A stretch of DNA of 41,074 nucleotides from Aigarchaeota archaeon (GTDB lineage: Archaea; Thermoproteota; Nitrososphaeria_A; Caldarchaeales; Wolframiiraptoraceae): the NCBI GenBank assembly GCA_025058515.1, contig JANXDW010000035.1, positions 1 through 41,074 on the forward strand, in the 5' to 3' direction. A program made the translations under genes and the position numbers. Shown here piece after piece: positions 21,313 through 37,015 of this stretch (positions are counted from its first letter, which is position 1; the number at the start of each line of letters is the position of its first letter). The notes beneath the pieces are model-generated. The model ran no database searches. It saw nothing but the letters and a program-made list of their open reading frames with translations, and was not told where the DNA came from.

Positions 21313-21314
21313 TA

Positions 21315-22715
21315 TTATTTCACCAGCATGTGGATAGGTTTGAAGATCGATGCTTCTGCAACTTCTGAGTATATCTCACTAAAGGTTGGATGAGGATGTA
21401 TCGTCTCTGATAATTGTTCTACTGTTAACTTATTCTTTACCGCTAGAGATGCTTCTCCGATAAGTTCAGTAGCTCTACTTCCAACTATTTGTACTCCGAG
21501 GATCGTACCTTTCTCTTGATCTGAGATAATTCTAATAAAGCCTTCTGTCTCTTCTTCAGCGATAGCTCTGCCAAGTGAAGAATAGCTAAATCTACTAATC
21601 TTAACCTTATAGTTTTTCTTCTCAGCTTCTTCTCTACTCAACCCCACTAAAGCTATTTCTGGATCTGTGAATATTGCTAAAGGTATAGTAGATGGGTCGA
21701 ACTCCTTCTTTCTACCAGCTATGTTCTCTGCTGCAACTATACCTTGTCTAGAAGCTTTGTGAGCTAGAAATGGTGGTCCAGTTACATCTCCAACAGCATA
21801 GATATTCTCTATACTCGTCTTACAGTATTTATCTACTTTAATGAACCCCTTCTCATCTAAAACTATTTTAAGGTCTTCTAAACCGATATCTCTAGTTAAA
21901 GGTTTCTTACCGACGGCTAAGAGAACATACTCTGAGTTTTCTTCTATCATTTCATTAGGCGTCTCGATAATAGTCTTAACTCTATCTTCAAGTATCTGTG
22001 AAGATGCTACTTTAGATGATAGGTGTATCTTAACTCCAATCTCTTTAAGCTTCCTCTCAATAATCTTCGCGATATCTCTATCAACCCCCGGTAGGAGCTG
22101 GTCCATTATCTCTACTATCGTTACATCGGTTCCTAGTTTAGCGTACATCGTTCCAAGCTCTAATCCGATCGCACCTCCTCCAATTACCAAGAGTCTTTCT
22201 GGGACCTTACCCAACTCTAATGCTTCCTTTGACATAATTACTCTCTTACCATCATAGGGAATAGACTGTAAAGATGCTTGAGATGCTCCAGTAGATAGTA
22301 CAATATTCTCTCCTACAATCTCTCTTACACTCCCATCTCTTTCTTCCAATCTTATCTTAGAATCAGACTTGATTACTGCTTTTCCAAGATAGAGCTTTAC
22401 ATTATATCCTTTTAACAAGAATTCTACCCCCTCCCTAATCTTTTTAACTAGTTTCCTCTTTTTTTCTTGAAGATAGCTCCAGTCGATCTCTCCCCTTTTT
22501 AAGAAGCCTAATCGTGAGAGCCTGTAATATTGGTTAACATTCTCAATGAGGATCTTTGAAGGTATGCATCCATAGTTTAAACATTCTCCACCTATGAACT
22601 CTTTCTCAATTATAGCTGTCTTTAAACCTAGCTGAGCTAGTCTTATAGCTGCGACATATCCTCCCGGTCCACCACCTATTACTACTGCTCCATATCTATC
22701 CATATCTCTCATCAC
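21315..22715 (-). CDS. lpdA: Dihydrolipoyl dehydrogenase
   Basis: FAD enzyme that reoxidises dihydrolipoyl groups with NAD. The 466-aa product has the N-terminal FAD motif G-G-G-P-G-G-Y, the redox disulfide GGECLNYGCIPSK near residue 45, an NAD-binding G-G-G-A-I-G-L, the FAD motif Y-A-V-G-D-V-T-G, and the active-site C-terminal HPHPTFSE. It lies between lipA (12 nt upstream) and lipB (2 nt downstream), so it is dedicated to a lipoate-dependent complex. Which one (glycine cleavage, 2-oxoacid dehydrogenase or a lipoate-binding sulfur carrier) cannot be told here. Confidence 0.96.
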   Translation of the reverse strand: MMRDMDRYGAVVIGGGPGGYVAAIRLAQLGLKTAIIEKEFIGGECLNYGCIPSKILIENVNQYYRLSRLGFLKRGEIDWSYLQEKKRKLVKKIREGVEFLLKGYNVKLYLGKAVIKSDSKIRLEERDGSVREIVGENIVLSTGASQASLQSIPYDGKRVIMSKEALELGKVPERLLVIGGGAIGLELGTMYAKLGTDVTIVEIMDQLLPGVDRDIAKIIERKLKEIGVKIHLSSKVASSQILEDRVKTIIETPNEMIEENSEYVLLAVGKKPLTRDIGLEDLKIVLDEKGFIKVDKYCKTSIENIYAVGDVTGPPFLAHKASRQGIVAAENIAGRKKEFDPSTIPLAIFTDPEIALVGLSREEAEKKNYKVKISRFSYSSLGRAIAEEETEGFIRIISDQEKGTILGVQIVGSRATELIGEASLAVKNKLTVEQLSETIHPHPTFSEIYSEVAEASIFKPIHMLVK

Positions 22716-22727
22716 TTTCCGTACATC

Positions 22728-23612
22728 TCATGCTCTATTTATTATTGTTCTTAAGTAGAATTCTGAAGCGAGATAAGAACTTCTAACAAGAGGGCCTGAA
22801 GCAACATATAAGAAGCCTAGTTCTTCTCCTATCTTTCTATATTTCTCAAATTTTTCTGGATGAATATATTCTCTTACAGGTAGATGTTTCTTAGTAGGTC
22901 TTAGATATTGTCCAAGTGTGAGGAAGTCTACTCCAACACTTCTTAAATCGGACATGCTCTCGATCACTTCTTCTTCACTTTCTCCTAAACCGAGCATTAG
23001 AGAAGACTTCGTATATCTTGTTGGATCCATGTCTTTAATGAGCTTCAAGGTCTTAAGAGATTTTTCATATCCTGCTCTAGGGTCTCTTACTATAGATGTT
23101 AATCTTCTAACTGTCTCAAGATTATGGCCTATGACATCTGGCCTGCTTTCAACAACTCTTCTTATTGAGTTTAGGTCGTTATTGAAGTCTGGGATGAGAG
23201 CTTCAACTATTGTATCGCTACCCTCTTTTATCTTTTTTATTGTTTCTGCATAAATTGATGCACCACCATCTGGGAGGTCATCTCTAGTTACAGAAGTTAT
23301 AACGACATATCTCAACCCTAGCTCTCTTACAGCTTCTCCAACTCTTCTCGGCTCATCTAGATCAACCAAACCTCTCGGATTACCAGTTTTAACAGCACAG
23401 AATCTACAAGCTCTCGTACAAGTATCTCCAAGAATTATTATCGTGGCCGTACCATGACTCCAGCATTCAGAGATATTTGGACATAAAGCTTCTTCACATA
23501 CCGTATTAAGATGGAACTTCTTTATAATGGAGTTAACTTTAATGTATTCTTGGCTTGAAGGTAGTCTTACCTTTATCCAGCTAGGCTTACCCGTTAATCC
23601 CGTCTGCATCAT
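22728..23612 (-). CDS. lipA: Lipoyl synthase
   Basis: Radical SAM enzyme inserting two sulfurs into octanoyl-lysine. The 294-aa product has the auxiliary-cluster motif [12 protein letters not shown] (CX4CX5C), the radical SAM motif C-T-R-A-C-R-F-C (CX3CX2C) and the C-terminal R-S-S-Y with the Ser ligand. The frame is open upstream to a GTG at 23651. That codon would be only about 5 nt from the TATA box at 23656-23665, ahead of the predicted start of transcription, and its extension is unlike the family. The ATG at 23612 (or 23609) is therefore chosen. First gene of lipA-lpd-lipB. Confidence 0.95.
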
Positions 23613-23653
23613 CTGAATATGTAGAAGTAGGAATAGTAAAAATCTTTCCACGC

Positions 23654-23688: not shown

Positions 23689-23755
23689 CTAACCGGTAAT
23701 CATTCAATAAACAATGGTTAAGAATAGATATGTTAACTTATTGAATGAGGATCAA

Positions 23756-24310
23756 ATGATTGAGATTAGATGGCATGGGAGAGGAGGTCAAGGGGTTGTA
23801 ACTGTAAGCGATATAATGGCTAGGTCAATAATTATGGGGGGAAAGTATGCACAGCATTTTCCTGAGTTTGGACCTGAGAGGTCTGGAGCTCCTGTTAAAG
23901 CATTTACAAGAATATCAGATGAACCTATAGAGATTCATTCTGGAGTTTACAATCCAGACATCGTTGTAATTATAGATGAAGGTATGTCAAAGAACTTCAA
24001 CCTATATATTCAAGGATTAAAAGAGAATGGATTACTATTCCTTAATCTAGGAGATATGAGAGACCAGATTAAGCAGAATCTACCAAAGAATGTTCGAGTA
24101 TATGTAGTTAATGCGAAAAAGATATCTTATGAGGAAGCAGGTAAACCAATATTCAACATACCAATGTTGGGTGGTTTAGTTAAAGTATTAAGGATGCCAG
24201 ACCTTAATACTATTGAAGAAGTTTTGAGTAGAAGGTTTCCAAGTGAATTGTTTGAAGTAAATATTAGGATATTGAGGAGAGCTTATGAAGAGGTGGAGTC
24301 AATTGGCTGA
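23756..24310 (+). CDS. porG: 2-oxoacid (pyruvate):ferredoxin oxidoreductase subunit gamma
   Basis: 184-aa gamma subunit of a four-subunit thiamine-dependent enzyme that converts a 2-oxoacid and CoA to acyl-CoA, CO2 and reduced ferredoxin. The family opening I-R-W-H-G-R-G-G-Q-G-V and the F-P-E-F-G-P-E-R-S-G-A-P block are present. The ATG at 23756 is preferred because GAGG lies about 6 nt upstream and homologues start there; the frame extends back to an ATG at 23714. First gene of porGDAB; it overlaps porD by 26 nt. Confidence 0.92.
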   Translation: MIEIRWHGRGGQGVVTVSDIMARSIIMGGKYAQHFPEFGPERSGAPVKAFTRISDEPIEIHSGVYNPDIVVIIDEGMSKNFNLYIQGLKENGLLFLNLGDMRDQIKQNLPKNVRVYVVNAKKISYEEAGKPIFNIPMLGGLVKVLRMPDLNTIEEVLSRRFPSELFEVNIRILRRAYEEVESIG

Positions 24311-24605
24311 AGTAGATGTTAAGAAGATCGCTAGAGGTGATTTCACTTGGAGGTCTCTACCTCTAGCCGCTATGATTAAGGTTCCAACTTCACTAGAGTA
24401 TAAGACTTCTGATTGGAGAATTGAGAAGCCTGAGATAGATCAATCTAAGTGTATAAAATGCTTACTCTGTTGGATCTATTGTCCAGATATGTCTATAAAG
24501 AGATTAGATGAAGGAAGAGTAGAAGTTGATTACGATTTCTGTAAAGGATGTGGAATCTGTGCTGAGGTCTGTCCAACAAAGGCCATTAAGATGGTCGAGG
24601 AATGA
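24285..24605 (+). CDS. porD: 2-oxoacid (pyruvate):ferredoxin oxidoreductase subunit delta
   Basis: 106-aa electron-transfer subunit with two [4Fe-4S] motifs: C-I-K-C-L-L-C-W-I-Y-C-P and C-K-G-C-G-I-C-A-E-V-C-P. The N-terminal 45 residues end in the W-R-I-E-K-P-E-I-D motif usual for PorD. The ATG at 24285 lies inside porG; porA follows after 3 nt. It accepts electrons from the thiamine site and passes them to ferredoxin. Confidence 0.95.
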   Translation: MKRWSQLAEVDVKKIARGDFTWRSLPLAAMIKVPTSLEYKTSDWRIEKPEIDQSKCIKCLLCWIYCPDMSIKRLDEGRVEVDYDFCKGCGICAEVCPTKAIKMVEE

Positions 24606-24608
24606 GCT

Positions 24609-25802
24609 ATGAGCAAGCTTGAATATGTTAGGAAGATGGCTTTGATGGGAGATGAAGCAGTTGCATACGCAGTTAAACAAGCAGATGTAGATGTTATAGC
24701 CGCCTACCCGATAACTCCTCAGACGATAATAGTTGAGAGGCTTAGCAAATATGTTGCAGACGGTGAACTCAACGCATCATTCATTCAAGCTGAGAGTGAG
24801 CACTCAGCATTATCGATATGTATAGGGTCTGCTCTAGCAGGTGCTAGAACATTTACATCAACAGCTAGTCAAGGACTCGCATTAATGCACGAGGTACTCT
24901 ATATAGCATCCTCAATGAGAGCTCCTATAGTTATGGCCATAGCTAACCGTGCTCTCAACTCTCCTCTAAATATCCACTGCGACCACTCAGATATCATGGG
25001 TGCAAGAGATACTGGATGGATACATCTATTCGCAAACAATGTTCAACAAGCATACGACCTCACTTTAATGGCTTTCAAGATAAGTGAAGACCCAGATTTA
25101 TTAATACCTGTCTCTGTAAATTTAGATGGATTTATATTAACACATAGTATTGAACCTCTTGAAGTCTTATTAGATGAAGAAGTACATCAGTTTATACCTC
25201 ATGAACCCTATCCCCATGAGATAGATTTCGGAAATCCCTTAGCATATGGAGTAATGGCTCTCCCAGATACATACATGGAGTTCAAGAGACAGTTTCAAGA
25301 AGCTATGCTAAAAGTTCCAGAAGTATTCCATAAAACTACAAGAGAATTCTATACAATATCTGGAAGAACATATAAGTCACTAACTTCATACTTTACTGAA
25401 GATGCTGAAGCAGTAGTAATAGCTCTAGGATCAACTGTTGAGACCCTAAAATATGTAGCAAGAAAGTTTAGAGAGAAGAATATTAAAGTCGGCGTTTTGG
25501 GGTTAACGATGTATAGACCTTTCCCTGAGAAAGAGATTGTAAAAGTCTTAGAGAATGTAAGATGTATAGCAGTACTGGATAGAGCATATTCTTACGGAGG
25601 AGTTGGTGGACCATTATACACAGATATCCTAGCCTCTCTCTATAAAAATGGTATGAAACCAATTGTTGCAGACTTTGTCTATGGGCTTGGTGGAAGAGAT
25701 TTCAAGTTAACTGACTCAGAAGAAATCTTCAGAAAGATGATGAAGGCAATAGAATGTAATGGTTTTGAGAGAGATATATATTGGTGGGGGGTAAAAGAGT
25801 AG
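24609..25802 (+). CDS. porA: 2-oxoacid (pyruvate):ferredoxin oxidoreductase subunit alpha
   Basis: 397-aa alpha subunit. It has A-A-Y-P-I-T-P-Q-T near residue 33, the A-E-S-E-H-S-A segment near residue 60, S-T-A-S-Q-G-L near residue 82, and the N-I-H-C-D-H-S-D-I-M-G-A-R-D block typical of PorA. The C-terminal transketolase-type domain contains G-S-T-V-E-T and R-P-F-P. Pyruvate is the most likely substrate by overall resemblance, but 2-oxoisovalerate (Vor) enzymes are close relatives and cannot be excluded. It abuts porB directly. Confidence 0.93.
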   Translation: MSKLEYVRKMALMGDEAVAYAVKQADVDVIAAYPITPQTIIVERLSKYVADGELNASFIQAESEHSALSICIGSALAGARTFTSTASQGLALMHEVLYIASSMRAPIVMAIANRALNSPLNIHCDHSDIMGARDTGWIHLFANNVQQAYDLTLMAFKISEDPDLLIPVSVNLDGFILTHSIEPLEVLLDEEVHQFIPHEPYPHEIDFGNPLAYGVMALPDTYMEFKRQFQEAMLKVPEVFHKTTREFYTISGRTYKSLTSYFTEDAEAVVIALGSTVETLKYVARKFREKNIKVGVLGLTMYRPFPEKEIVKVLENVRCIAVLDRAYSYGGVGGPLYTDILASLYKNGMKPIVADFVYGLGGRDFKLTDSEEIFRKMMKAIECNGFERDIYWWGVKE

Positions 25803-26750
25803 ATGACCACTGTAGAGAAGTATTTTAAAACAATAAGTGATGTACCTGTAGAAGACTACTTTGCTCCTGGTCATAGATTATGTGCAGGATGTGGTGCCTC
25901 TATAGCTATTAAGCTTGCGATGAAGGCTATCAAGTCGCCCACCATCGTAGTAAATGCTACAGGATGTATAGAGGTTGCGACATCAATGTTCCCATATGTT
26001 AGCTGGAGGGTTCCATGGGTTCATGTAGCGTTCGAGAATACTGCAGCAGTTGCGAGCGGAATCTCAGAAGGGTTAAAGATTCTAAATAAGAAGAGGGGAA
26101 AGATAATGTATGATGTTATTGCGATAGGTGGAGATGGTGGAACATTCGATATAGGTTTACAAGCTTTATCTGGAGCTCTTGAAAGAGGTCACAAGATGCT
26201 ATACATATGTTATGACAATGAAGCATACATGAATACTGGTGTACAGAGATCTGGAGCAACCCCTATAGGTGCAGTTACAACAACTAGCCCTGCTGGAGAG
26301 ATTATACCTGGAAAACGAGAGAGAAAGAAAGACTTGATAGGGATAGTTGCAGCCCATAGAATACCTTATGCAGCTACAGCCTCTATCTCTCATCCTCTAG
26401 ACTTCATCAACAAAGTTAGGAAAGCTCTAGAGATAAATGGTCCAACCTTTATTCACGTTATAACTCCATGCACCTTAGGATGGAGATATCCACCTTCCCT
26501 AACGGTAAAGATTGCAAGATTAGCTGTTGAGACTAGATATTTTCCAGTATTCGAAGTTGAAGATGGGAGAGTCAAGATAAATATTAGAGTCTCTAGACCT
26601 AAACCTCTTGAAGAGTTCCTTCAAGTACAAGGTAGATTCAGACATCTTCTCGATGATCGGAATAGAGATGTTCTAGAAGCTCTTAAGAAACAAGTTGAAG
26701 AGAATTGGAATAAACTTGTAAAACTTGAAGAATTAGGAGTCTATATCTAA
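25803..26750 (+). CDS. porB: 2-oxoacid (pyruvate):ferredoxin oxidoreductase subunit beta
   Basis: 315-aa beta subunit holding thiamine diphosphate and a [4Fe-4S] cluster. Conserved features are C-A-G-C-G-A-S near residue 28, N-A-T-G-C-I-E near residue 52, the thiamine motif G-D-G-G-T-F-D-I-G near residue 108, and C-Y-D-N-E-A-Y-M-N-T-G-V-Q-R-S. Its ATG is the base after the porA stop. Last gene of porGDAB; T-rich sequence follows. Confidence 0.94.
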   Translation: MTTVEKYFKTISDVPVEDYFAPGHRLCAGCGASIAIKLAMKAIKSPTIVVNATGCIEVATSMFPYVSWRVPWVHVAFENTAAVASGISEGLKILNKKRGKIMYDVIAIGGDGGTFDIGLQALSGALERGHKMLYICYDNEAYMNTGVQRSGATPIGAVTTTSPAGEIIPGKRERKKDLIGIVAAHRIPYAATASISHPLDFINKVRKALEINGPTFIHVITPCTLGWRYPPSLTVKIARLAVETRYFPVFEVEDGRVKINIRVSRPKPLEEFLQVQGRFRHLLDDRNRDVLEALKKQVEENWNKLVKLEELGVYI

Positions 26751-26783: not shown

Positions 26784-27767
26784 TTAACTGATGAGATTTA
26801 TCCCCGTAATATTTTGAATCTTGGAGAGAATTGAGTTAGTCAATCTATCCTCTAATTTAGTCTTGATACTATGGAGAGATAATAGTATCTCGTTTATTCT
26901 TCTTACTACACGCTGAGGGTAGGGTATAGACCTAAACTCGATATAAAGCTTCTCTAGATCTTTAGGAGAGATAGTTTTACCGTAGAAGGCTTTGAAGATA
27001 GCGGATAACTGGTTTAAATTATATTTATAGCAGTTAATAAATGATGAATGATTGTATAGACAATTACTACAGTTAGATGTAAGTAGTTCTCTCATAGGAC
27101 CCTTGCTACTTATTCTTACATGTTTTACAACTTTAACATAGTTCTCCTTCTTTAATCTCGATAAAGCTTTATAAAGTGTACTGACGCTTACACCTCCTCT
27201 AAGAACTCTTCTAAATAATTCATCTACCGTGGACTCTCCATAACTACATAAATAGTCGATGACCTTCTGGTGTATGGCTGGTGGAATTCTAGATATGTAT
27301 TCACTTAATCTAGTTTGTAGAAGGTTTAACATCATGCTATAGTCTTGGGGTAGGGTCATCCCAAGTTTTCTTAAGCATACCTCAAGCTGGGTATTAAAAT
27401 CTTCAACTATTATAGATGATAGAGAATCATACTCGTCTGCTCTAATACATGAGTTTAAGAGACACCATAAATAATGTACACGTTCATCTCTCCAACCCAT
27501 CCTAACAAACCATGAAAACTTATTTAATGCATCTACTATTGGAAATCTATCTATGAGATAGACTTCCTTATCTATCTTCTTTAAATAGTTGTTCAACGAT
27601 AACTTATCTAGAATTTCTACACCTTTATTGTTCATGGCCACTACTACAAGATCTTGATTATTGAATCTCTCAATTGGAACTATAGGAGGAGAATTTACAT
27701 AATTTTCTTCATCAAACTCATATGGCTTAAATTCTTTTAAAAGTGTTAGTAGCTCAGCCTCTTTCAT
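26784..27767 (-). CDS. Unrecognised winged-helix-like regulator with Cys cluster
   Basis: 327 aa, no family recognised. A mixed N-terminal domain (about 1-150, with W86, W92 and W101 in a hydrophobic patch) precedes a segment at about 165-220 that reads like a winged helix: a helix near V-D-E-L-F-R-R-V-L, a likely recognition helix S-V-S-T-L-Y-K-A-L-S-R-L-K-K-E, then a short strand-turn-strand. Next come Cys233, Cys236 and Cys246 (C-x2-C-x9-C), which could bind Zn or Fe-S with a fourth ligand such as His240 or another Cys. A helical C-terminal domain (about 250-327) ends it. It lies between two ferredoxin oxidoreductase operons, divergent from kor. A transcription regulator of one or both is inferred. 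Confidence 0.55.
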   Translation of the reverse strand: MKEAELLTLLKEFKPYEFDEENYVNSPPIVPIERFNNQDLVVVAMNNKGVEILDKLSLNNYLKKIDKEVYLIDRFPIVDALNKFSWFVRMGWRDERVHYLWCLLNSCIRADEYDSLSSIIVEDFNTQLEVCLRKLGMTLPQDYSMMLNLLQTRLSEYISRIPPAIHQKVIDYLCSYGESTVDELFRRVLRGGVSVSTLYKALSRLKKENYVKVVKHVRISSKGPMRELLTSNCSNCLYNHSSFINCYKYNLNQLSAIFKAFYGKTISPKDLEKLYIEFRSIPYPQRVVRRINEILLSLHSIKTKLEDRLTNSILSKIQNITGINLIS

Positions 27768-27858: not shown

Positions 27859-28143
27859 ATGACTTTAAAAATAGTTAGAGAGCCCATAAACAAACATATA
27901 CAGAAGATTCCGTTAGGATGGATTCATATAATACCTGAAAGATGTAAGGAATGCGGCTTCTGTATTGAATTATGTCCTAAAGATGTATTGATAGTAGGGA
28001 ATGAGAGGAATATAAAAGGATATAGGTGGCCAAAGATAGCTGATGGAAAAGCATACGATTGTATAGCTTGCAAGATGTGTGAATGGATCTGTCCTGAATT
28101 TGCAATATTTGTTAAAGAAGTCGAGAGAGGTGAAGTAGTTTAA
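27859..28143 (+). CDS. korD: 2-oxoglutarate-type:ferredoxin oxidoreductase subunit delta
   Basis: 94-aa ferredoxin-like subunit with two [4Fe-4S] motifs, C-K-E-C-G-F-C-I-E-L-C-P and C-I-A-C-K-M-C-E-W-I-C-P. The ATG at 27859 has GGTGGG about 9 nt upstream and follows a TATA box; an in-frame TTG at 27841 is less likely. Its stop overlaps the korA ATG by one base (TAATG). First gene of the long run korDABG-hdrA-hdrD-etfAB. Confidence 0.93.
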   Translation: MTLKIVREPINKHIQKIPLGWIHIIPERCKECGFCIELCPKDVLIVGNERNIKGYRWPKIADGKAYDCIACKMCEWICPEFAIFVKEVERGEVV

Positions 28144-29288
28144 TGTCAGGTGAACTTAAGCTTTTAAAACCTGGAACCCACTTTTTAATGGGAAACATCG
28201 CTTGTGCAGAAGCAGCTTTAATAGCTGGATGTGAATTCTATGCAGGATATCCTATAACTCCATCTAATGAGATAGCTGAACACATGAGTAGGAGGATGCC
28301 TGAATTAGGAAGACATTTTATACAGATGGAAGATGAGATCGCTAGTGCAGTAGCCATACTGGGAGCTTCTGCTGCAGGTGTAAAGAGTATGACCGCAACA
28401 TCTGGACCAGGCTTCTCATTAATGATGGAGTCTATAGGTTTATCAGCAATGCTAGAGCTTCCATGTGTTATAGTAGATGTTCAGAGAGCTGGACCTAGCA
28501 CAGGTATTCCTACATTCGTAGGTCAAGGAGATGTTATGCAATCTCGGTGGGGATCACATGGAGATTACGAGCTTGTAGTTTACGCTCCATCTTCTGTTCA
28601 AGAATTCTTCGATCTAACTATCGAGGCTTTCAATACATCAGAATGGTTACGGATTCCTACGATCGTTTTATCAGATGAGGTTGTAGGACATATGTATGGA
28701 AGGCTCGAAGTACCACCATATGATAAGATAACTATAATCAATAGGAAGAAGTATGAAGGTAGGAAAGAAGATTATCTACCTTATAATTACGAGACGTTGA
28801 TCCCACCATTCGTCGCAGCAGGTGAAGGATATAGAATACATATGACGGGCTTAACACATGATGAAAGAGGCTATCCATCATTGGAGATTGAGGATTCTCA
28901 TAAACTCCTTGAAAGACTTGTAATGAAAGTGAGGAAAAATGCTAAGAACCTTTGGAAGTATGAGAGCTACTTCATAGATGATGCAGATATCGTTGTCATA
29001 ACATTCGGAATAACCGCTAGAGCATCGATTGAAGCAGTGAAAAGAGCTAGGAAGGAAGGATTGAAAATCGGCTTACTCAAACTATTAACCCTATGGCCTT
29101 TCCCAGAAGATCCTGTAAAGATTGCAAGTCAATATGCTAGAAGAATACTCGTAGCTGAGATCAATATGGGTCAGTTAATCCATCCTGTTAGAGAAGTTGC
29201 AGAATGCCCTGTAGCAAGTATAAACTATCCAGTTGGCTATGTCCCACCACCAGAGTATATTCTAGATGGTATTAGAGCGGCGGTGTAG
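28143..29288 (+). CDS. korA: 2-oxoglutarate-type:ferredoxin oxidoreductase subunit alpha
   Basis: 381-aa KorA-type subunit. Motifs: G-Y-P-I-T-P-S-N-E near residue 35, Q-M-E-D-E-I-A-S near 61, T-S-G-P-G-F-S near 83 and Q-R-A-G-P-S-T-G near 111, the typical KorA set that differs from the PorA gene at 24609. The substrate is likely 2-oxoglutarate, but branched or aryl oxoacids cannot be excluded from sequence alone. Confidence 0.92.
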   Translation: MSGELKLLKPGTHFLMGNIACAEAALIAGCEFYAGYPITPSNEIAEHMSRRMPELGRHFIQMEDEIASAVAILGASAAGVKSMTATSGPGFSLMMESIGLSAMLELPCVIVDVQRAGPSTGIPTFVGQGDVMQSRWGSHGDYELVVYAPSSVQEFFDLTIEAFNTSEWLRIPTIVLSDEVVGHMYGRLEVPPYDKITIINRKKYEGRKEDYLPYNYETLIPPFVAAGEGYRIHMTGLTHDERGYPSLEIEDSHKLLERLVMKVRKNAKNLWKYESYFIDDADIVVITFGITARASIEAVKRARKEGLKIGLLKLLTLWPFPEDPVKIASQYARRILVAEINMGQLIHPVREVAECPVASINYPVGYVPPPEYILDGIRAAV

Positions 29289-29292
29289 GAAT

Positions 29293-30156
29293 ATGAGTCG
29301 GAGCCAGATCTTAAGAGAAAATATAGTGAAAGAATCTCCAAGAGATGATCTAATTAGAAAAGATAGGTTTCCACATATATGGTGTCCAGGATGTAGTCTT
29401 GGAACGGTCTTGAAATGTTATGTTGAAGCAATAGCTTCATCTAATATACCGATAGATAAGCACGTAGTTGTATCTGGGATAGGGTGTACTGGTAGGATTG
29501 CTGGATACATAAAACTCGATTCATATCATGTAACTCATGGGAGACCAATAGCCTTTGCAGAAGGTATGAGGATCGTTAGACCAGATCTAGAAGTAACTGT
29601 CATTAGCGGAGATGGAGACTTAGTAACTATAGGGGGAAACCACTTTATACACGCTATTAGAAGAAATGTCGATATAAACGTCTTCCTCGTAAATAACTTC
29701 ATCTACGGTATGACTGGAAACCAGATGGGATCTACAACCCCGATAGGAGCGAGAAGCTCTACAAGCCCTTACGGCTGCCCCGAGTATCCATTCAACTTAC
29801 CCCTCCTAGTAGCATCTCTAGGAGCACCTTTTGTTGCAAGATGGACTACACTCCACGTTAGACAATTAGCAGATGCTATGAAGAGAGCTCTCCAAGTAAA
29901 AGGTTTCGCATTTATAGAGATAATAACCTCATGCCCAGTAGGATTTGGATCATACAATGAGTTAAGAGAAGGATTAGACTTTATAAAGTTATTCAGAGAT
30001 AGCTGTGTAGTAGACCATAACGCAGACCTCACTAAAGTAGGTATAACTCTTAGACCTGGTGAACCTATAGTACTTGGAAACTTTGTTGATAGAGAAGTCC
30101 CCACATATCATGACCTTGAAAAAGAGGTCTTCAAGAAAGCGGGGTGGTTGAAGTGA
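29293..30156 (+). CDS. korB: 2-oxoglutarate-type:ferredoxin oxidoreductase subunit beta
   Basis: 287-aa thiamine-binding subunit. It has W-C-P-G-C-S-L-G near residue 32, G-I-G-C-T-G-R near 64, the thiamine motif G-D-G-D-L-V-T-I-G-G-N-H and the N-N-F-I-Y-G-M-T-G-N-Q block. The ATG at 29293 is chosen; the frame also reads back into korA to a GTG at 29266, which homologues do not support. It ends overlapping korG by 4 nt. Confidence 0.93.
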   Translation: MSRSQILRENIVKESPRDDLIRKDRFPHIWCPGCSLGTVLKCYVEAIASSNIPIDKHVVVSGIGCTGRIAGYIKLDSYHVTHGRPIAFAEGMRIVRPDLEVTVISGDGDLVTIGGNHFIHAIRRNVDINVFLVNNFIYGMTGNQMGSTTPIGARSSTSPYGCPEYPFNLPLLVASLGAPFVARWTTLHVRQLADAMKRALQVKGFAFIEIITSCPVGFGSYNELREGLDFIKLFRDSCVVDHNADLTKVGITLRPGEPIVLGNFVDREVPTYHDLEKEVFKKAGWLK

Positions 30157-30680
30157 GATGGGATATTAGGTGGGCGGGGTTCGGAGGTCAAGGAGTGATT
30201 AGAGCGGGAGAGATCCTTGGGAGAGCTGCTGTAAAACAAGGATTGGATTCTGCGATGAGACCTATGTATGGACCTGAGAAGACAGGTGGATGGTCTAGAG
30301 CTGATGTAGTAATCTCAGATGAACCGATAATCTTCCCACTCATAGTTAAACCAGACATACTGATAGCTATGTCTCAAGATGGTATGAATAGAGATGGCGC
30401 ATCTCTTAGGAAAGGTGGATTCCTACTAATCGATGGAGAACTAGTTAAAGAGATAAAGAGTTCTCCAAGTAAGATCTACTCTGTTGAGGCGACTAGTATA
30501 GCGGATAGCTTAGGGAGAAGAATAGTAGCGAATATAGTTATGCTCGGAGCCTTCGCTAAAGCATTTAACATCGTAGATCCAGAGATTCTTCTACAAACTA
30601 TTGTTGAATCTTTTCCGAGAGCTGTAGAACTCAACAAGACTGCTTTTAGATTAGGGATGGAGAAGGTTGAGGAGGTGTAG
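30153..30680 (+). CDS. korG: 2-oxoglutarate-type:ferredoxin oxidoreductase subunit gamma
   Basis: 175-aa gamma subunit with the opening R-W-A-G-F-G-G-Q-G-V-I and the Y-G-P-E-K-T-G-G-W-S-R block. The GTG at 30153 overlaps the korB stop in a GTGA, the usual coupling form, and gives the normal N-terminus; another in-frame GTG is at 30144. A strong GGAGGTG at its end serves hdrA, which starts 5 nt later. Confidence 0.9.
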   Translation: MRWDIRWAGFGGQGVIRAGEILGRAAVKQGLDSAMRPMYGPEKTGGWSRADVVISDEPIIFPLIVKPDILIAMSQDGMNRDGASLRKGGFLLIDGELVKEIKSSPSKIYSVEATSIADSLGRRIVANIVMLGAFAKAFNIVDPEILLQTIVESFPRAVELNKTAFRLGMEKVEEV

Positions 30681-30685
30681 CCAAG

Positions 30686-33600
30686 TTGCCTGATGAGGTA
30701 CTGGTTATAGGTGGAGGAATAGCTGGAATACAGTGTTCTTTAGACTTGGCAAATGCAGGTGTAAAAGTAGTCTTGGTTGAGAAGACTCCAACGATCGGTG
30801 GAAAGATGGCTATACTAGATAAGAACTTCCCAACATTAGACTGCTCTATCTGTATTGAAGCACCTAAGATGAGTGAAGTGGGAAAACATCCTAACATAGA
30901 GTTATTGACTTTAGCTGAAGTAGTAAATGTTGAGAAAGATGGTGGAGACTATGTTGTTGAAATATACCAGAAGCCTAGATATGTAACAAGCGAGTGTAGT
31001 AGATGTGGTCTCTGCGTAGATGTATGTCCCGTACTATTGAAGAATGAATTTGATTATGGGATGGCTGCTAGAAAAGCTATATACACTCCGATACCTCAAT
31101 CAGAGCCTGGAGCCTATGTTATCGATATCGATAACTGCTTGAACAAGCCTCCTAACTATCTCCCATGTGATAGATGTATCCAAGTCTGTGGTCCGAAATG
31201 CATAGACTTCTTCATGAAGCCGAAGCTGATAAAGAAGAAAGTTAAAGCAATAATCGTCGCAACTGGTTTCGAGGTATTCGATGCGACGAGGATCCCCGAC
31301 TACTCTTATGGAGTACACCCAGATGTCTTAACCTCGATAGAGTATGAGAGACTTCTACAATCAACCGGTCCAAGTGGTGGAGAGATAGTTAAACCAAGTA
31401 ATGGTAAACATCCTGAAAGTATCCTCTTTATCTTATGCGTTGGTTCAAGAGATCCAAGATACAACAGATATTGTTCAAGGTTCTGCTGTATGTATACTAT
31501 AAAGCAAGCTGTCCAAACTAAAGAGCATGGTATTAAGAATGTTGATATACTCTATATGGATATAAGAGCTTACGGTAAAGGGTTCGATGGATTCTACAAG
31601 AGAGCTAGAGATGAAGGCATAGTATTCATAAAGGGGAGAGCTGGAAGAGTAATCCCAAATGGAGATAAGTTGAAGGTACGTTATGAGAACATCCTTGAAG
31701 GAAGAATGGAAGAGAAAGAGTATGATATGGTCGTTCTCGCAGTAGCTTCAGAACCTCCACCAGATTTAGCAAAGCTTGCAAAGATCTTAGGAGTAGAGTT
31801 GGATGAAGACGGCTTCATAAAGACGATTCCAGTAAGGGGGAAGATGGTGGCCACAACCCGTGAAGGAATCTTCGCATGCGGTGGAGCATCAGGTCCAAAA
31901 GATATAGCAGATAGTGTAACAGAAGGAGGTGCAGCTGCTTCTGCAGCACTCGAATATGTAAAAGAGAAAAGTTGGCCTCAGGAAGAATATAAGGAAACCA
32001 TACCTACTGAAGGAGAAGTCAGGGTAGGAGTATTCGTCTGCCACTGTGGATCGAATATTGCAGGTGTAGCAGATGTTAAGCGGCTTGCTGAAGAAGCTGC
32101 AAAGATACCAGGGGTAGTCCACTCTGAAGATCTAAGATTTGCATGTGCAGGAGTATATACAAAGTATATTGAGCAAGTGATTAGAGAGAAGAATATAAAT
32201 AGACTCGTAGTTGCAGCATGCTCACCGAAGACACATACAACCGTATTTACTGGAGCAGCGATGAGAGCTGGTCTAAATCCATATCTATTCGAGATGGCGA
32301 ATATACGTAACTTAGATACTTGGGTTCACGCAGCTTACCCGAAAGAAGCTACAGAGAAAGCCCTCGATATGATCAAGATGGCTGTAGCCAAGGCGAAGTT
32401 GATGAAGCCACTATACGTTGTCAAGCTCCCAGTAACTAGGAGAGCTTTAGTAGTTGGAGGAGGTGTCGCAGGGATGGCTGCGGCCACAAGTTTAGCCCGT
32501 CAAGGTTTTGAGACATATCTCGTAGAGAAAGAGAGCCAGTTAGGGGGACTTGTGAGATACCTAGATACAATAGCACCGGAAGAGATTAGAGCAAGCGATC
32601 TACTCGAAGAGATGGAAAGAGAATTATACAATTCAGGTGTAAAGGTTATTCTAGGAGCGAAGATAGAATCGGTCAGTGGATATATTGGAAACTTCATGGT
32701 AAATCTATCAAATGGTATGAAGCTGGATGTTGGAGCAATCATAATGGCTACGGGTGCGAAGGTCTATCAACCGCACGGTGAACTTCAACCAAATGGGGGA
32801 CAAGTCATTACTTCACTCGACCTTGAAGAGATCTTTAAGAATGGAGGAAACCCTGATGCTAAAAAGGTTGTCTTCATAGGATGCGTTGGGTCTAGATACG
32901 ATTCAAAGGGGTGCTCGAGATTCTGCTGTCAAGTAATGATTAAGCAAGCGATCAAACTAAGAGAGATGGGAAAGAATGTATTCGTACTCTACAAAGATAT
33001 TAGAACATATAGTAGGAAGGCTGAAGAACTATACGAGAAGGCTAGAGCTCTAGGAGTCAGGTTCATAAAATACGATCCTGAGAAGAAGCCTGAAGAAGTA
33101 ATAAAGATAGAGGATAATATAGTGCATGTAAGAGATGAGCTCCTAGGGGAAGAGATTAGTATACCCGCCGACTTGGTAGTCCTCAATGTAGGGTTGGTTC
33201 CAAACGATGAGATAAACTCGATAGCTGAGCAATTGAAGATAGCTAGAGATGAAGCAGGATTCCTATTAGAACTACATCCAAAACTAGGACCTGTAGAATC
33301 TATGGTTGGAGGAGTATTCTTAGCGGGTGCAGCTCAGAATCCGAAAGATGTGAGAGAGGCGATTACACAAGGTCTCGCTGCAGCAGCAAAAGCATCCGCC
33401 CTCCTTGCAAAAGATACTATAGATAAAGAACCGCTGATGCCTCGTATTAACTACGATAAATGTACATACTGTCAGAGATGCGTTCAAGTATGTACCTTCT
33501 CAGCTTTAAGAGGAGAGTTGAGAAAGAGCCTTGAACTTATTAGTGCTCTATGTCAAGGATGTGGAAATTGCTCTGCTGAGTGCATGGTTGGCGCTATGGA

Positions 33601-34093
33601 AGCTCCAGGATTCACAGATGAGCAGATTATTGCTCAGATAGATGCAGCTCTTGAAGAAAGACCTCATGAGAAGGCTATAGTTTTTGCATGCAATTGGTGC
33701 TCCTACGCTGGAGCAGACCAAGCAGGTATAGAGAAGCTACAGTATCCTCCGAGTTCAAGAGTGATTAGAACCATGTGCTCTGCAAGAGTATCGCAGAAGT
33801 TTATCATGCGAGCATTCGAGAAAGGTGCAGCAGTAGTTATGGTTACAGGATGCTGGCCACAGGACTGCCACTATAACTACGCTAACCTCAATACAGAGAA
33901 GAGATTTAAGCAGTGGAGAAAGCTGCTTGAAGCTAGAGGAATAAACCCTGAGAGATTAATACTTCACTGGAATAGTGCAGCGGAGAGTAAGAGGTGGGCG
34001 GCGAAGATGAAAGAAGTAGATGAGTTGATTAAGAAAATACCTAGAGAAGAGATTATTGAGACTGTACAGAAGATAGGAGGTGGAAAGAAGTGA
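30686..34093 (+). CDS. hdrA: HdrA-HdrA-ferredoxin-MvhD fusion protein
   Basis: 1135-aa flavin/Fe-S protein, TTG start with GGAGGTG about 8 nt upstream. Module 1 (1-445): FAD motif GGGIAG at 9, L-D-K-N-F-P-T-L-D-C near 45, a cluster motif at Cys104/107/110/114, a second Cys set at 161-172, and C-V-G-S-R-D (251) with Y-C-S-R-F-C-C (262). Module 2 (446-910): HdrA N-domain opening V-F-V-C-H-C-G-S-N (449), second FAD motif GGGVAG (591), G-C-V-G-S-R (732) and C-S-R-F-C-C (743). Then two ferredoxin motifs (Cys926-936 and 956-966) and an MvhD domain (993-1100; Cys1002, 1005, 1031, 1056, 1061). This equals a QmoA-like plus QmoB-like fusion. It is probably the flavin hub of a heterodisulfide reductase-type complex. 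Confidence 0.9.
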   Translation: MPDEVLVIGGGIAGIQCSLDLANAGVKVVLVEKTPTIGGKMAILDKNFPTLDCSICIEAPKMSEVGKHPNIELLTLAEVVNVEKDGGDYVVEIYQKPRYVTSECSRCGLCVDVCPVLLKNEFDYGMAARKAIYTPIPQSEPGAYVIDIDNCLNKPPNYLPCDRCIQVCGPKCIDFFMKPKLIKKKVKAIIVATGFEVFDATRIPDYSYGVHPDVLTSIEYERLLQSTGPSGGEIVKPSNGKHPESILFILCVGSRDPRYNRYCSRFCCMYTIKQAVQTKEHGIKNVDILYMDIRAYGKGFDGFYKRARDEGIVFIKGRAGRVIPNGDKLKVRYENILEGRMEEKEYDMVVLAVASEPPPDLAKLAKILGVELDEDGFIKTIPVRGKMVATTREGIFACGGASGPKDIADSVTEGGAAASAALEYVKEKSWPQEEYKETIPTEGEVRVGVFVCHCGSNIAGVADVKRLAEEAAKIPGVVHSEDLRFACAGVYTKYIEQVIREKNINRLVVAACSPKTHTTVFTGAAMRAGLNPYLFEMANIRNLDTWVHAAYPKEATEKALDMIKMAVAKAKLMKPLYVVKLPVTRRALVVGGGVAGMAAATSLARQGFETYLVEKESQLGGLVRYLDTIAPEEIRASDLLEEMERELYNSGVKVILGAKIESVSGYIGNFMVNLSNGMKLDVGAIIMATGAKVYQPHGELQPNGGQVITSLDLEEIFKNGGNPDAKKVVFIGCVGSRYDSKGCSRFCCQVMIKQAIKLREMGKNVFVLYKDIRTYSRKAEELYEKARALGVRFIKYDPEKKPEEVIKIEDNIVHVRDELLGEEISIPADLVVLNVGLVPNDEINSIAEQLKIARDEAGFLLELHPKLGPVESMVGGVFLAGAAQNPKDVREAITQGLAAAAKASALLAKDTIDKEPLMPRINYDKCTYCQRCVQVCTFSALRGELRKSLELISALCQGCGNCSAECMVGAMEAPGFTDEQIIAQIDAALEERPHEKAIVFACNWCSYAGADQAGIEKLQYPPSSRVIRTMCSARVSQKFIMRAFEKGAAVVMVTGCWPQDCHYNYANLNTEKRFKQWRKLLEARGINPERLILHWNSAAESKRWAAKMKEVDELIKKIPREEIIETVQKIGGGKK

Positions 34094-35235
34094 GTAAAGC
34101 TCTTCTAGTAAACATTGAGCTAATGGAGAAGATGGCACAATTAACATCTAATGTTGCAGACTACTGCTACCAATGTGGAACCTGCACAGCATCATGTCCA
34201 TTCAACATCTTAAAACCCGATACATTAAACCCTAGGAAGATTGTCAGGAGAGCTCTACTTGGATTACCCTACGATGATGGAAGCTTATGGCTATGTTCTA
34301 CATGCGGTTTATGTGAAGTAAAGTGTCCATGGAGTATAAGAATTCCCGAAGTAGTAAGAGGTTATAGACAATTAGCATCAGAGAGTAGAAAGATCCCTCA
34401 AAAACTTGAAGAGATTCTATGGATGATCTATGAAGATGGAACAGCTTTCCCTGGATCTAGTATTGAGAGAACTGTATGGACAGAAGGTTTAAAGATTAAA
34501 GATGCCTCTAGAGAGAAGGTAAAAGTCCTCTTATACATTGGATGCGCAGTATCATTTGATAAGAGGTTGCAGAAGATTGCTAAATCTTTAGTAAATATAC
34601 TCTCTAAAGTAGGAGTAGATTTCGGGATACTTGGAAGAGAAGAGAAGTGTTGTGGAGACGTAGTATACAATATTGGGGAAGATGCTTTTCTAGAAGAACT
34701 AGCTACACAGAATATAGAGAGATTTAACAAGACAGGTGCAGAAGTCATCATCGCAATCTCCCCTCACTCTGCACATATGTTCAAGCGAATATATCCAAAA
34801 TATGGATTAAAGATACCTTCACAACATTATATTGAGTTTATAGCAGACCTAATTGAGAAAGATAAGATTAGGTTAGAGAAGCCTGTAGATGGCTTAGTCA
34901 CAATCCACGACCCCTGCTATCTTGGAAGATACTTGAAGATCTACGATGAGCCTAGAAAAATACTATCAAGTATACCTGGTTTAGAGATAATCGAGATGAA
35001 GGATAATAAAGAGAATGCAGTTTGTTGTGGAAGTGGGGGAGGTAGGCACTTCTTAGAAGTACATGGGGAAAGACTTAGCCACTACAGAGTAATGGAGGCA
35101 GCTGAGACAGGCGCTAAGATCATGGTAGCTCCATGTCCATTCTGTATACAAAATTTCGAGGATAGCGTGAAAGTAAAGAGACTAGATATAAATGTAAAGG
35201 ATATAATCGAGTTGGTCAACTTATCTGTAAGCTGA
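34090..35235 (+). CDS. hdrD: HdrD-like (HdrC-HdrB fusion) Fe-S protein
   Basis: 381 aa; the GTG start overlaps the hdrA stop in a GTGA. The N-terminal HdrC-like part has two [4Fe-4S] motifs, Cys26/29/32/36 and Cys69/72/75/79. The C-terminal HdrB-like part has two CCG regions. The second is complete: Cys276, Cys312-Cys313, Cys349-x2-Cys352 (CX35CCX35CXXC). The first keeps Cys152 and Cys187-Cys188, but the CxxC is replaced by S-P-H-S (224-227), so only one noncubane cluster is expected. In known Hdr enzymes such clusters reduce a disulfide; relatives act on other acceptors. Soluble, with no membrane helix. Partner of the HdrA fusion and EtfAB by context. Confidence 0.9.
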   Translation: MSKALLVNIELMEKMAQLTSNVADYCYQCGTCTASCPFNILKPDTLNPRKIVRRALLGLPYDDGSLWLCSTCGLCEVKCPWSIRIPEVVRGYRQLASESRKIPQKLEEILWMIYEDGTAFPGSSIERTVWTEGLKIKDASREKVKVLLYIGCAVSFDKRLQKIAKSLVNILSKVGVDFGILGREEKCCGDVVYNIGEDAFLEELATQNIERFNKTGAEVIIAISPHSAHMFKRIYPKYGLKIPSQHYIEFIADLIEKDKIRLEKPVDGLVTIHDPCYLGRYLKIYDEPRKILSSIPGLEIIEMKDNKENAVCCGSGGGRHFLEVHGERLSHYRVMEAAETGAKIMVAPCPFCIQNFEDSVKVKRLDINVKDIIELVNLSVS

Positions 35236-35244
35236 GGTATCGAT

Positions 35245-36222
35245 ATGAGTGGAGAGTTTAAAGGTATATGGGTATACTTAGAGAGACGTGGAGACCAGAT
35301 TATCGATCCATCTATTGAAGTCTTGGGGAAAGCACGTGAACTAGCTGAGAAAAGTAGAGATGAGATAGTAGGCATAATTCTAGGATATAGAGGTTTAGAT
35401 AAATTAGGAGAAGTAGCGATACAATATGGTTCAGATAAGGTTTACATAATTGAAGACCCCGTTCTTGAAGAATATTCAACCATACCATATGCAGAAGCTA
35501 TCTCAAGAGCTCTAACAAAATATAAACCAAATATAATACTCTATCCAGCTACTAGAAATGGTAGAGATCTAGCTGGAAGAATCTCTGCAAAGCTTAACTT
35601 AGGATTGTCGGCAAATACAGTTTGGCTAGATATCTCTAGTGATGGAGTCCTTCTAGCAGGAGTTCCTGGATTCGGAGGAGCAATTATGGCTGTTACTAAA
35701 TGCTTAACTAGACCACAGATGGCAACTGTTAGACCAGGAGTATTCCCTAAACCTCAACTAGACCCTTCTAGAAGAGGTTCTGTGGAGAGAATAGATGTAG
35801 GAAAGATCCCTGAACCTAAAATTAGAGTAGTTGAAAGAACATTCTATGAAGTTGAAGATATAAGTAAGGCAGAGGCAATAGTGGTTGCGGGAGTAGGATT
35901 AAGAGATAATGTAGAGATTGTGAAAAAGTTAGCAGAAGAATTGGGATGGAAGTTTGGAGCAACGAGACCTCTCTCAGATGAAGGTCTCGTTCCTAGAGAT
36001 ATCTTTATCGGAGCAACTGGAAAAGTCGTCAAACCTAAGATAGCTTTAATCATAGGGGTAAGCGGGGCCGCACACTTCATATCAGGTATAACTGGTGCAG
36101 AGAAGATAATCTCAATAAATATCGATCCAGAAGCACCCATTCACAGTTACTCAGATTACTCTGTAACTGGAGATGGATACAAGATAGTTCCAAAATTATT
36201 AGAGAAGATAAGGGGTGAGTAA
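35245..36222 (+). CDS. etfA: Electron transfer flavoprotein subunit alpha
   Basis: 325-aa alpha subunit that binds FAD. The N-terminal alpha/beta domain (about 5-190) is followed by the FAD domain with V-V-A-G-V-G-L-R, the A-T-R-P-L-S-D-E-G block, G-A-T-G-K-V-V-K-P, G-V-S-G-A-A-H-F and I-N-I-D-P-E-A-P-I. A G-A-G-G or G-A-L-G insertion seen in many relatives is absent. The ATG at 35245 has GAGGT about 6 nt upstream and lies 9 nt after hdrD. No ETF:quinone oxidoreductase, FixC or FixX is nearby; the redox partner is inferred to be the HdrA/HdrD pair. Confidence 0.94.
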   Translation: MSGEFKGIWVYLERRGDQIIDPSIEVLGKARELAEKSRDEIVGIILGYRGLDKLGEVAIQYGSDKVYIIEDPVLEEYSTIPYAEAISRALTKYKPNIILYPATRNGRDLAGRISAKLNLGLSANTVWLDISSDGVLLAGVPGFGGAIMAVTKCLTRPQMATVRPGVFPKPQLDPSRRGSVERIDVGKIPEPKIRVVERTFYEVEDISKAEAIVVAGVGLRDNVEIVKKLAEELGWKFGATRPLSDEGLVPRDIFIGATGKVVKPKIALIIGVSGAAHFISGITGAEKIISINIDPEAPIHSYSDYSVTGDGYKIVPKLLEKIRGE

Positions 36223-36226
36223 ATTG

Positions 36227-37015
36227 ATGCATATAATAGTTTGTATGAAAGTTACTCCAAAGCCTGAGCAGGTTAAGCTTGACCCTGTAACAAAAACCAT
36301 TATTAGAGAAGGTGTAGAGAACGAGATAAATCCTGCAGATAAGAATGCTCTAGAAGCTGCATTACAATTAAAGGAGAAACATAATTGTAAAGTTACTGTT
36401 ATTGGGATGGGGCCACCTATATGGGAGTCTTTTATGAAGCTTGCTGTAGCTATGGGTGCAGATGATGCAGTCCTAATATCTGATAAAGCATTCGCAGGAG
36501 CGGATACACTTGCAACTAGTAGAACTCTTGCAGAAGCTATTAAAAAAATAGGAGAATACCACATTATACTATGTGGAGAAGAATCGAGCGATGCTGGAAC
36601 AGGTCATGTTCCTCCAAGTATTGCAGAATTCTTGAATATTCCTCAGATAACATTTGTAAGCAACGTCGAGATCGTGGACGGTAAGATAAGAGCTAAGAGA
36701 GTACTTGAAGGAGCTTATGAAATAATTGAATGTGAACCCCCAGTACTCTTATCTATTGAGTATGGCTCGAATACTCCAAGATTCCCAGACTTTAGGAGGA
36801 AGAGATGGGTAGATAAAGAGTTTAAACTCAAAATCTTAAACATAAAAGATTTAGAGTTGAGAGAAGAAGAAGTAGGGTTGAAGGGTAGTAGAAGTATCGT
36901 AGAAGAATTAAGAGAGATGAGTTTAAAAGAGAGGGCTAGGCAGAAGATATCAGGTACAGAAGAAGAGATTGCATCTCAGATACTAGAGATCATTAGACCG
37001 TATATCAAGAAGTAA
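36227..37015 (+). CDS. etfB: Electron transfer flavoprotein subunit beta
   Basis: 262-aa beta subunit. The start M-H-I-I-V-C-M-K-V-T-P matches the family opening; the ATG at 36227 has GGTGA about 8 nt upstream. An in-frame GTG at 36215 overlaps etfA and is less likely. The nucleotide-binding region includes A-D-D-A-V-L-I-S-D and G-E-E-S-S-D-A-G-T-G-H-V-P-P. The N-T-P-R-F-P segment resembles the N-x-P-R-x-P found in bifurcating-type Etf proteins, suggestive but not proof. Last gene of the kor-hdr-etf run. Confidence 0.93.
   Translation: MHIIVCMKVTPKPEQVKLDPVTKTIIREGVENEINPADKNALEAALQLKEKHNCKVTVIGMGPPIWESFMKLAVAMGADDAVLISDKAFAGADTLATSRTLAEAIKKIGEYHIILCGEESSDAGTGHVPPSIAEFLNIPQITFVSNVEIVDGKIRAKRVLEGAYEIIECEPPVLLSIEYGSNTPRFPDFRRKRWVDKEFKLKILNIKDLELREEEVGLKGSRSIVEELREMSLKERARQKISGTEEEIASQILEIIRPYIKK

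Follow-up and report, generated by a model that had tools for sequence, protein, structure and literature searches.

A conserved Kor-Hdr-Etf operon of archaea and bacteria that may encode an NAD-linked 2-oxoacid oxidoreductase complex built on a double HdrA

Introduction

On a 41,074-nucleotide stretch of DNA from an Aigarchaeota archaeon (contig JANXDW010000035.1; hereafter the window), eight consecutive genes, korD-korA-korB-korG-hdrA-hdrD-etfA-etfB, bring together the subunits of a 2-oxoacid oxidoreductase (Kor), two proteins of the heterodisulfide reductase (Hdr) families and both subunits of an electron-transfer flavoprotein (Etf). The locus raises the question of whether these enzymes act as one unit and, if so, by what route electrons would cross it. 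An initial annotation had proposed a soluble, undescribed electron-bifurcating system in which EtfAB feeds or drains the HdrA flavins. Here we show that the block is one conserved unit with a fixed gene order. From residue patterns in its proteins, we propose that the eight products form one soluble complex in which a relay runs from Kor through HdrA and HdrD to EtfAB and nicotinamide adenine dinucleotide, NAD(H), a reading to which we assign a probability of about 0.5.

Results

Gene order and distribution

All eight open reading frames (ORFs) lie on the forward strand between 27841/27859 and 37015, and each has the expected domains (Table 1), in agreement with the coordinates and families first assigned. 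The junctions also match, within the choice of start codons: korD and korA overlap by 1 nucleotide, korA and korB (starting at 29293) are separated by 4, korB and korG overlap by 4 or 13 (korG start at 30153 or 30144), korG and hdrA are separated by 5, hdrA and hdrD overlap by 4, hdrD and etfA are separated by 9, and etfA and etfB either overlap by 8 (start 36215) or are separated by 4 (start 36227). As had been proposed, the unit appears soluble by hydropathy, with no membrane segment predicted in the eight proteins (highest 19-residue Kyte-Doolittle mean, 1.68).

Among 39 loci compared, all eight genes stand in the same order in 26 and are rearranged in none; the other 13 are cut by a contig edge or have an ORF that is split or missed. 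The loci span two domains of life and come from Thermoproteota, Thermoplasmatota/Euryarchaeota, Chloroflexota and Elusimicrobia; a scan with an HdrA alignment brought in the first Dehalococcoidia, Elusimicrobia and Thermoplasmatota/Euryarchaeota copies. Named relatives with HdrA proteins 87-89% identical to that of the window belong to Candidatus Geocrenenecus (Caldarchaeales, formerly Aigarchaeota). Of four further genomes of this genus, three carry the complete order and the fourth ends at etfB with its contig; the order also recurs in relatives from Terraquivivens, Pelearchaeum, Calditenuaceae and HR02. Conservation of gene order in relatives, chosen beforehand as a refuting test, was thus found across several phyla. 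EtfAB is most likely wired to HdrA, as had been proposed.

A profile search recovered the operon-type EtfA from at least 17 of 398 Thermoproteota genomes, at least 10 of 400 Chloroflexota genomes and at least 8 of 390 genomes in the phylum of the euryarchaeal locus L084 (here termed Thermoplasmatota). It gave no operon-type copy among 248 genomes of the phylum to which the Elusimicrobia genome belongs, where that genome's own copy is truncated at a contig end, and none among 395 genomes of the phylum that includes the Syntrophaceae genome. Because searches with EtfA alone overlook the Elusimicrobia copy, whose contig stops in hdrD, these counts, taken from genome samples, are lower bounds. The regions around the copies recovered have identical gene order, without exception. 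Most carriers are metagenome-assembled genomes; the block is also present in Vulcanisaeta, including the cultured isolate V. distributa IC-017 (PMC3035369), so that a binning artefact is ruled out. Beyond the genus, the loci have no flanking gene in common except a pyruvate oxidoreductase (Por) cluster in two lineages. Since the same order is found in two domains while the flanks change, the arrangement is beyond chance. For seven subunits, pairwise distances are correlated (0.87-0.96), which fits transfer of the block or its inheritance as a unit.

We found no earlier description of a Kor-Hdr-Etf unit in the literature, open-licence papers being covered. That literature has HdrA with hydrogenase, formate dehydrogenase, MetF, Flx and F420 modules, and Etf adjoining membrane HdrF or EtfD.

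One explanation of the conserved order is a co-transcribed central-metabolism operon with no joint complex, in which Kor uses ferredoxin from the free pool and the Hdr-Etf proteins make up another enzyme. Kor would be self-sufficient, its α, β (thiamine pyrophosphate, TPP), γ and δ (ferredoxin) subunits all being identified, and hdrD-etfAB does occur without kor in related archaea (loci L059, L061 and L062). However, across the 39 loci Kor is never apart from hdrA-hdrD-etfAB, contig ends aside; a sister operon described below likewise joins Kor to Hdr and to another pyridine-nucleotide flavoprotein; and the residue signatures presented next follow the full operon, not hdrD-etf adjacency. We therefore consider separate enzymes quite unlikely.

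EtfAB

In the bifurcating Ldh-EtfAB, an arginine of EtfA at the N5 of the β-flavin adenine dinucleotide (β-FAD) is essential for bifurcation, and in EtfB the motif DGDTAQVGP binds β-FAD and RxFxG binds NAD (PMC9232219; also PMC5691135). The arginine (R205 in A. woodii, R136 in C. difficile) is retained in 25 of 28 other EtfA proteins and in none of 36 operon EtfAs, 33 of which have valine (V140 in the window). The histidine at the α-FAD, present in 28/28 other EtfAs, is phenylalanine in 36/36 operon copies (F278 in the window). Window EtfB reads D-A-G-T-G-H-V-P-P at the β-FAD motif, and the second aspartate is found in none of 33 operon EtfBs. The NAD motif, frequently lost in other EtfBs, is K-x-F-x-G in the window and fits [RK]x[FL]x[GA] in all 33. 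This residue signature was set first, and many operon copies turned up afterwards.

By these residues the operon EtfAB is a distinct subfamily, and it was ruled out as a standard bifurcating Etf by the missing arginine (0/36) and second aspartate (0/33). The part of the initial annotation that called the system electron-bifurcating does not hold for EtfAB; with the loss of an arginine that known bifurcating Etfs require, the term can apply at most to HdrA. We infer instead that EtfAB would serve as a non-bifurcating NAD(H) port. A canonical EtfAB that bifurcates from NADH to supply reduced ferredoxin to a reductive Kor, with HdrD and HdrA as the high-potential sink, might be expected from its closest solved relatives, CarDE (CarCDE), Ldh-EtfAB, Bcd-Etf (Bcd-EtfAB) and EtfABCX, all of which bifurcate and share the NAD motif with the operon proteins. 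The loss of both the N5 arginine and the second aspartate in every operon copy argues against such an enzyme, as does the arginine-to-alanine substitution in Ldh-EtfAB, which abolishes bifurcation but not NADH oxidation (PMC9232219), and we regard it as very improbable.

The Etfs of L059, L061 and L062, in which hdrD lies beside etf and kor is absent, retain both the arginine and the histidine; thus, the signature follows the full operon rather than hdrD-etf adjacency. These Thermoproteota loci are arranged as hdrD-etfBA-hdrA or hdrD-etfBA (L061:2980-10531, L062:4708-10366 and L059:1517-4526), and in one of them HdrD is a membrane protein resembling nitrate reductase gamma. Elsewhere, the EtfA of L101 has valine at the arginine position without the operon, yet retains the histidine; a non-operon EtfA of Syntrophaceae (L176:9013-10827) also has valine there and adjoins an acyl-CoA-dehydrogenase-like gene. 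A Desulfobacterota match considered as an operon-type Etf proved to be an ordinary, arginine-bearing CarE type.

Hydrogenase, formate dehydrogenase and FixC had been reported as missing. This is correct for the operon, and in none of the 39 loci is FixC/FixX part of the conserved block. Elsewhere in the window's genome, apart from the operon, a complete HdrABC-MvhDGA locus lies on contig C18, two further Etfs lie beside FixC/FixX-like genes (contigs C5 and C25) and a third beside beta-oxidation-like genes (C39), the FixC/FixX and beta-oxidation labels having been assigned by eye from sequence.

HdrD

HdrD has two cubane-cluster motifs, a degenerate CCG1 (S224-P-H226) and a complete CCG2 (C276, C312, C313, C349 and C352). 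The CxxC of CCG1 reads SPH[C/S/T] in 38/38 operon HdrDs; at this place the window genome's own canonical HdrB carries CPAC. The five cysteines of cluster 2 (D2) are present in every full-length copy, and the Dehalococcoidia proteins have lost additional ligands of cluster 1 (D1). The top sequence match in the PDB is mycobacterial EtfD (9ojn), and the predicted fold (predicted local distance difference test score, 92) has a template modeling (TM) score of 0.84 to EtfD versus ∼0.5 to HdrB. In all 38 copies the equivalent of EtfD C581 is serine and that of H583 is histidine (H226). In EtfD, His583 completes cluster D2 and renders it non-catalytic; FadF and DgcB, which have no D1 ligands, are thought to take Etf electrons as well (PMC13083937). 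The membrane/haem domain of EtfD is absent from the operon protein, which has no hydrophobic segment in its 381 residues.

The ligand pattern in 38/38 copies and a fold nearer to EtfD ruled out HdrD as a classical heterodisulfide reductase, the role first suggested for it. Judging from sequence and model, a disulfide reductase function of HdrD is improbable, and we infer that it would be a disulfide-independent relay to Etf. In an alternative of the Hdr type, disulfide reduction by HdrD would be combined with bifurcation at HdrA, and EtfAB would supply or empty the flavins. In its favor are the type II HdrA and the CCG domains, and the lipoate genes near the window operon make a lipoyl disulfide conceivable. 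However, CCG1 is short of a cluster ligand in every copy and more are lost in Dehalococcoidia, the EtfD-type histidine sits where it renders cluster 2 non-catalytic (PMC13083937), and lip genes are not conserved beside the operon in loci from other genera. Such a complex is scarcely credible.

A sister operon, found at L085, L087, L088, L089 and L090 in Anaerolineales, Syntrophaceae, Desulfarculus and an actinobacterium, consists of kor genes, a GltD-HdrA fusion, mvhD, hdrD and a split hdrA-mvhD, with Etf absent; we found no description of it in the literature. Its HdrD has complete cluster ligands (CPEC), and since these are intact where Etf is absent, the degeneration of HdrD appears tied to Etf. 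The GltD-type NAD(P)H module stands in the place of EtfAB, which backs EtfAB as an NAD(H) port and suggests, at the level of sequence, that pyridine-nucleotide modules have been swapped between the two operons.

HdrA

The gene first described as an hdrA fusion encodes two HdrA units and MvhD in a single 1135-residue chain, that is, a type II HdrA, and matches PDB HdrA 5odc over three stretches. The cluster cysteines are kept in 19/19 sequences, only C172 and C398, outside the cluster motifs, being variable. The Glu/Lys pair of the HdrA FAD site (E356 and K409 in the numbering of PMC12054007) corresponds in the N-terminal half to E/D221 (E221 in the window) and K273, both present in 19/19, and in the C-terminal half to E714, present in 19/19, and K753, present in just 4/19. 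Because the acidic residue and lysine of the N-terminal half are kept throughout, the family shares one candidate bifurcating flavin, and any splitting or merging of electrons would be at the N-terminal FAD of HdrA. The MvhD cysteines C1002, C1005, C1031, C1056 and C1061 are kept in 19/19. In the structural model of HdrA, the inserted ferredoxin region is of low confidence; the model confirmed the HdrA fold only and was not used for the mechanism.

In Dehalococcoidia, hdrA has TGA as its Cys56 codon (L080:10001-13411 and L082:4773-8183), such that standard ORF calling shortens the protein by ∼57 residues. A selenocysteine tRNA (tRNA-Sec) gene scores above the Rfam cut-off in 3/3 Dehalococcoidia genomes checked. 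Together, the TGA codon and the tRNA-Sec suggest that the HdrA of Dehalococcoidia is probably a selenoprotein.

The invariant MvhD cysteines also bear on a different direction of flow, in which EtfAB collects electrons from acyl-CoA dehydrogenases, these higher-potential electrons enter via HdrD, and HdrA merges them with low-potential Kor electrons onto a mid-potential acceptor at MvhD; the two electron pairs could be drawn from consecutive reactions in amino-acid degradation, from 2-oxoacid to acyl-CoA to enoyl-CoA. The cysteines imply that such a port exists, the β site of EtfAB lacks the bifurcation residues, and HdrD resembles EtfD, which with EtfAB serves beta-oxidation in mycobacteria (PMC13083937). 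However, the NAD motif, so often lost elsewhere, is kept in 33/33 operon EtfBs, the α-FAD histidine of all 28 other EtfAs is phenylalanine in all 36 operon copies, the operon contains no acyl-CoA dehydrogenase, and outside the genus nothing is conserved alongside it except Por. On balance this scheme seems unlikely, though we give it some credence.

Kor subunits and neighboring genes

The top PDB match of KorA is 1yd7 and the second is the 2-oxoglutarate synthase 8ys5; that of KorB is 8ys5_C, the β subunit of 2-oxoglutarate:ferredoxin oxidoreductase (OGOR). The Kor substrate is thus probably 2-oxoglutarate, as judged from the names of best hits only.

Upstream, a divergent gene between the Por and Kor operons encodes a 327-residue protein that has no Pfam match, is weakly similar to the ORF80 DNA-binding family and is present in every member of the genus (Table 1); it may regulate both operons. 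The Por operon of the window adjoins a lipoate cluster, and lip genes are not kept beside the Kor-Hdr-Etf operon outside the genus; on this ground an sHdr/LbpA-like link of the operon with lipoate was rejected. A PorGDAB-type cluster adjoins the block, as in the window, in a chloroflexotal lineage (L168:16178-19312 and L169) and in Terraquivivens (L054:17964-20000).

Table 1. Features of the operon, domains of HdrA and neighboring genes in the window
Feature	Coordinates	Strand	Assignment and basis
korD	27859..28143 (alternative TTG start 27841)	+	δ, two-cluster ferredoxin subunit of 2-oxoacid oxidoreductase; Pfam Fer4_7 1.2e-10; top NCBIfam OGOR_delta, under cut-off; gene 1 of the kept order
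korA	28143..29288	+	α, 2-oxoacid oxidoreductase; NF006412 506 bits (cut-off 411); POR_N
korB	29293..30156	+	TPP-binding β; TPP_enzyme_C 8.6e-30
korG	30144..30680 (alternative start 30153)	+	γ; POR 1.2e-35
hdrA	30686..34093	+	type II; NF040770 HdrA2 1160 bits (cut-off 1100); FlpD 8.9e-44
HdrA core 1	residues 1-430		with inserted ferredoxin domain
HdrA N-domain and core 2	residues 444-910
HdrA 4Fe-4S domain	residues 918-970
HdrA MvhD domain	residues 998-1118		[2Fe-2S]
hdrD	34090..35235	+	Fer4 and two CCG domains; CCG 2.1e-33; 381 residues; proposed soluble EtfD-like relay
etfA	35245..36222	+	ETF and ETF_alpha; operon-specific subfamily
etfB	36215..37015 (possible ATG start 36227)	+	ETF 9.7e-43
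lipB, lpd, lipA	20680-23651	-	adjacent; lipoate pathway, bacterial type
Por operon	23714-26750		pyruvate oxidoreductase
327-residue protein	26784-27767	-	putative regulator

Discussion

In the complex that we propose, Kor would oxidize a 2-oxoacid, probably 2-oxoglutarate, to acyl-CoA and CO2 and would pass low-potential electrons through KorD to the clusters of HdrA. HdrA would carry two FADs, with bifurcation or confurcation, if any, confined to the N-terminal site. HdrD would sit at the place where HdrBC docks on HdrA and deliver electrons to the α-FAD of EtfA via its His-ligated, non-catalytic cluster, and EtfAB would exchange them with NAD(H) without bifurcation. The MvhD domain would form a third port, for which the operon encodes no partner. 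The net direction could be either oxidative, with NADH made, or reductive, from acyl-CoA to 2-oxoacid. By textbook potentials, oxidation of 2-oxoglutarate lies near −500 mV and NAD near −320 mV, so direct wiring would waste energy; we conjecture that a third, higher-potential donor or the reductive direction is likely.

Taken as a whole, the operon may encode an NAD-linked 2-oxoacid oxidoreductase supercomplex of a kind not described before. In it, the N-terminal FAD of the double HdrA would have taken over bifurcation or confurcation from Etf, with EtfAB as a non-bifurcating NAD(H) port and HdrD as a disulfide-independent relay. We put forward this fuller version tentatively, at somewhat less than even odds. 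Several observations weigh against the proposed complex. Distance correlations of 0.87-0.96 would equally be expected if linked genes were simply inherited together, and they are no proof of contact. With the second β-FAD aspartate gone in 33/33, binding of FAD or NAD at EtfB is not assured; the NAD motif of window EtfB has K for R, and SPT is not strictly kept. Finally, a simple wire from Kor to NAD requires neither MvhD nor two HdrA flavins, and a third partner may be missing.

The individual parts have known counterparts. With HdrABC-MvhAGD, Fdh-Hdr, Flx-Hdr, MetVF-Hdr and HdrA2B2C2, the operon shares the HdrA FAD, the inserted ferredoxin domain, the MvhD docking domain, the acidic/Lys flavin residues of the N-terminal half and an HdrC-like docking domain, but unlike them it has Kor and EtfAB, a degenerate HdrB part and no hydrogenase, Fdh, Flx or MetF. 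Type II HdrAs likewise have two HdrA units per chain and a C-terminal MvhD fusion (PMC12054007, PMC11237513), whereas the published clusters, from methane-metabolizing archaea, contain molybdopterin oxidoreductase and F420 dehydrogenase in place of Kor, HdrD and EtfAB. HdrD shares with EtfD (9ojn) and FadF/DgcB the two cubane motifs, the CCG domains, the complete cluster-2 site with its histidine and, as proposed here, an EtfAB partner, but it has no membrane/haem domain, has lost a CCG1 ligand and is tied to HdrA, not menaquinone. EtfAB differs from its bifurcating relatives in the three lost residues and in its proposed partner, HdrD. Kor has the four subunits of 2-oxoglutarate:ferredoxin oxidoreductase KorABGD, with α and β nearest archaeal KorA and OGOR, yet in this family it always occurs with Hdr-Etf genes, unlike the standalone enzyme. 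The NADH-dependent phenylglyoxylate dehydrogenase PadEFGHI, compared by NCBIfam name and description only, also ties a Kor-type enzyme to NAD. To our knowledge, it has no HdrA or Etf.

HdrA is a widespread hub of flavin-based electron bifurcation, and the proteins joined to it reveal which reactions it couples. If our proposal is correct, 2-oxoacid oxidation would be added to these reactions. It would also mean that evolution can turn a heterodisulfide reductase into an Etf relay and that an Etf can give up bifurcation while part of a bifurcating assembly. A direct test is feasible in V. distributa, which is cultured. For anaerobic archaea with ferredoxin-type 2-oxoacid oxidation, such a complex could explain how low-potential electrons are returned to NAD.

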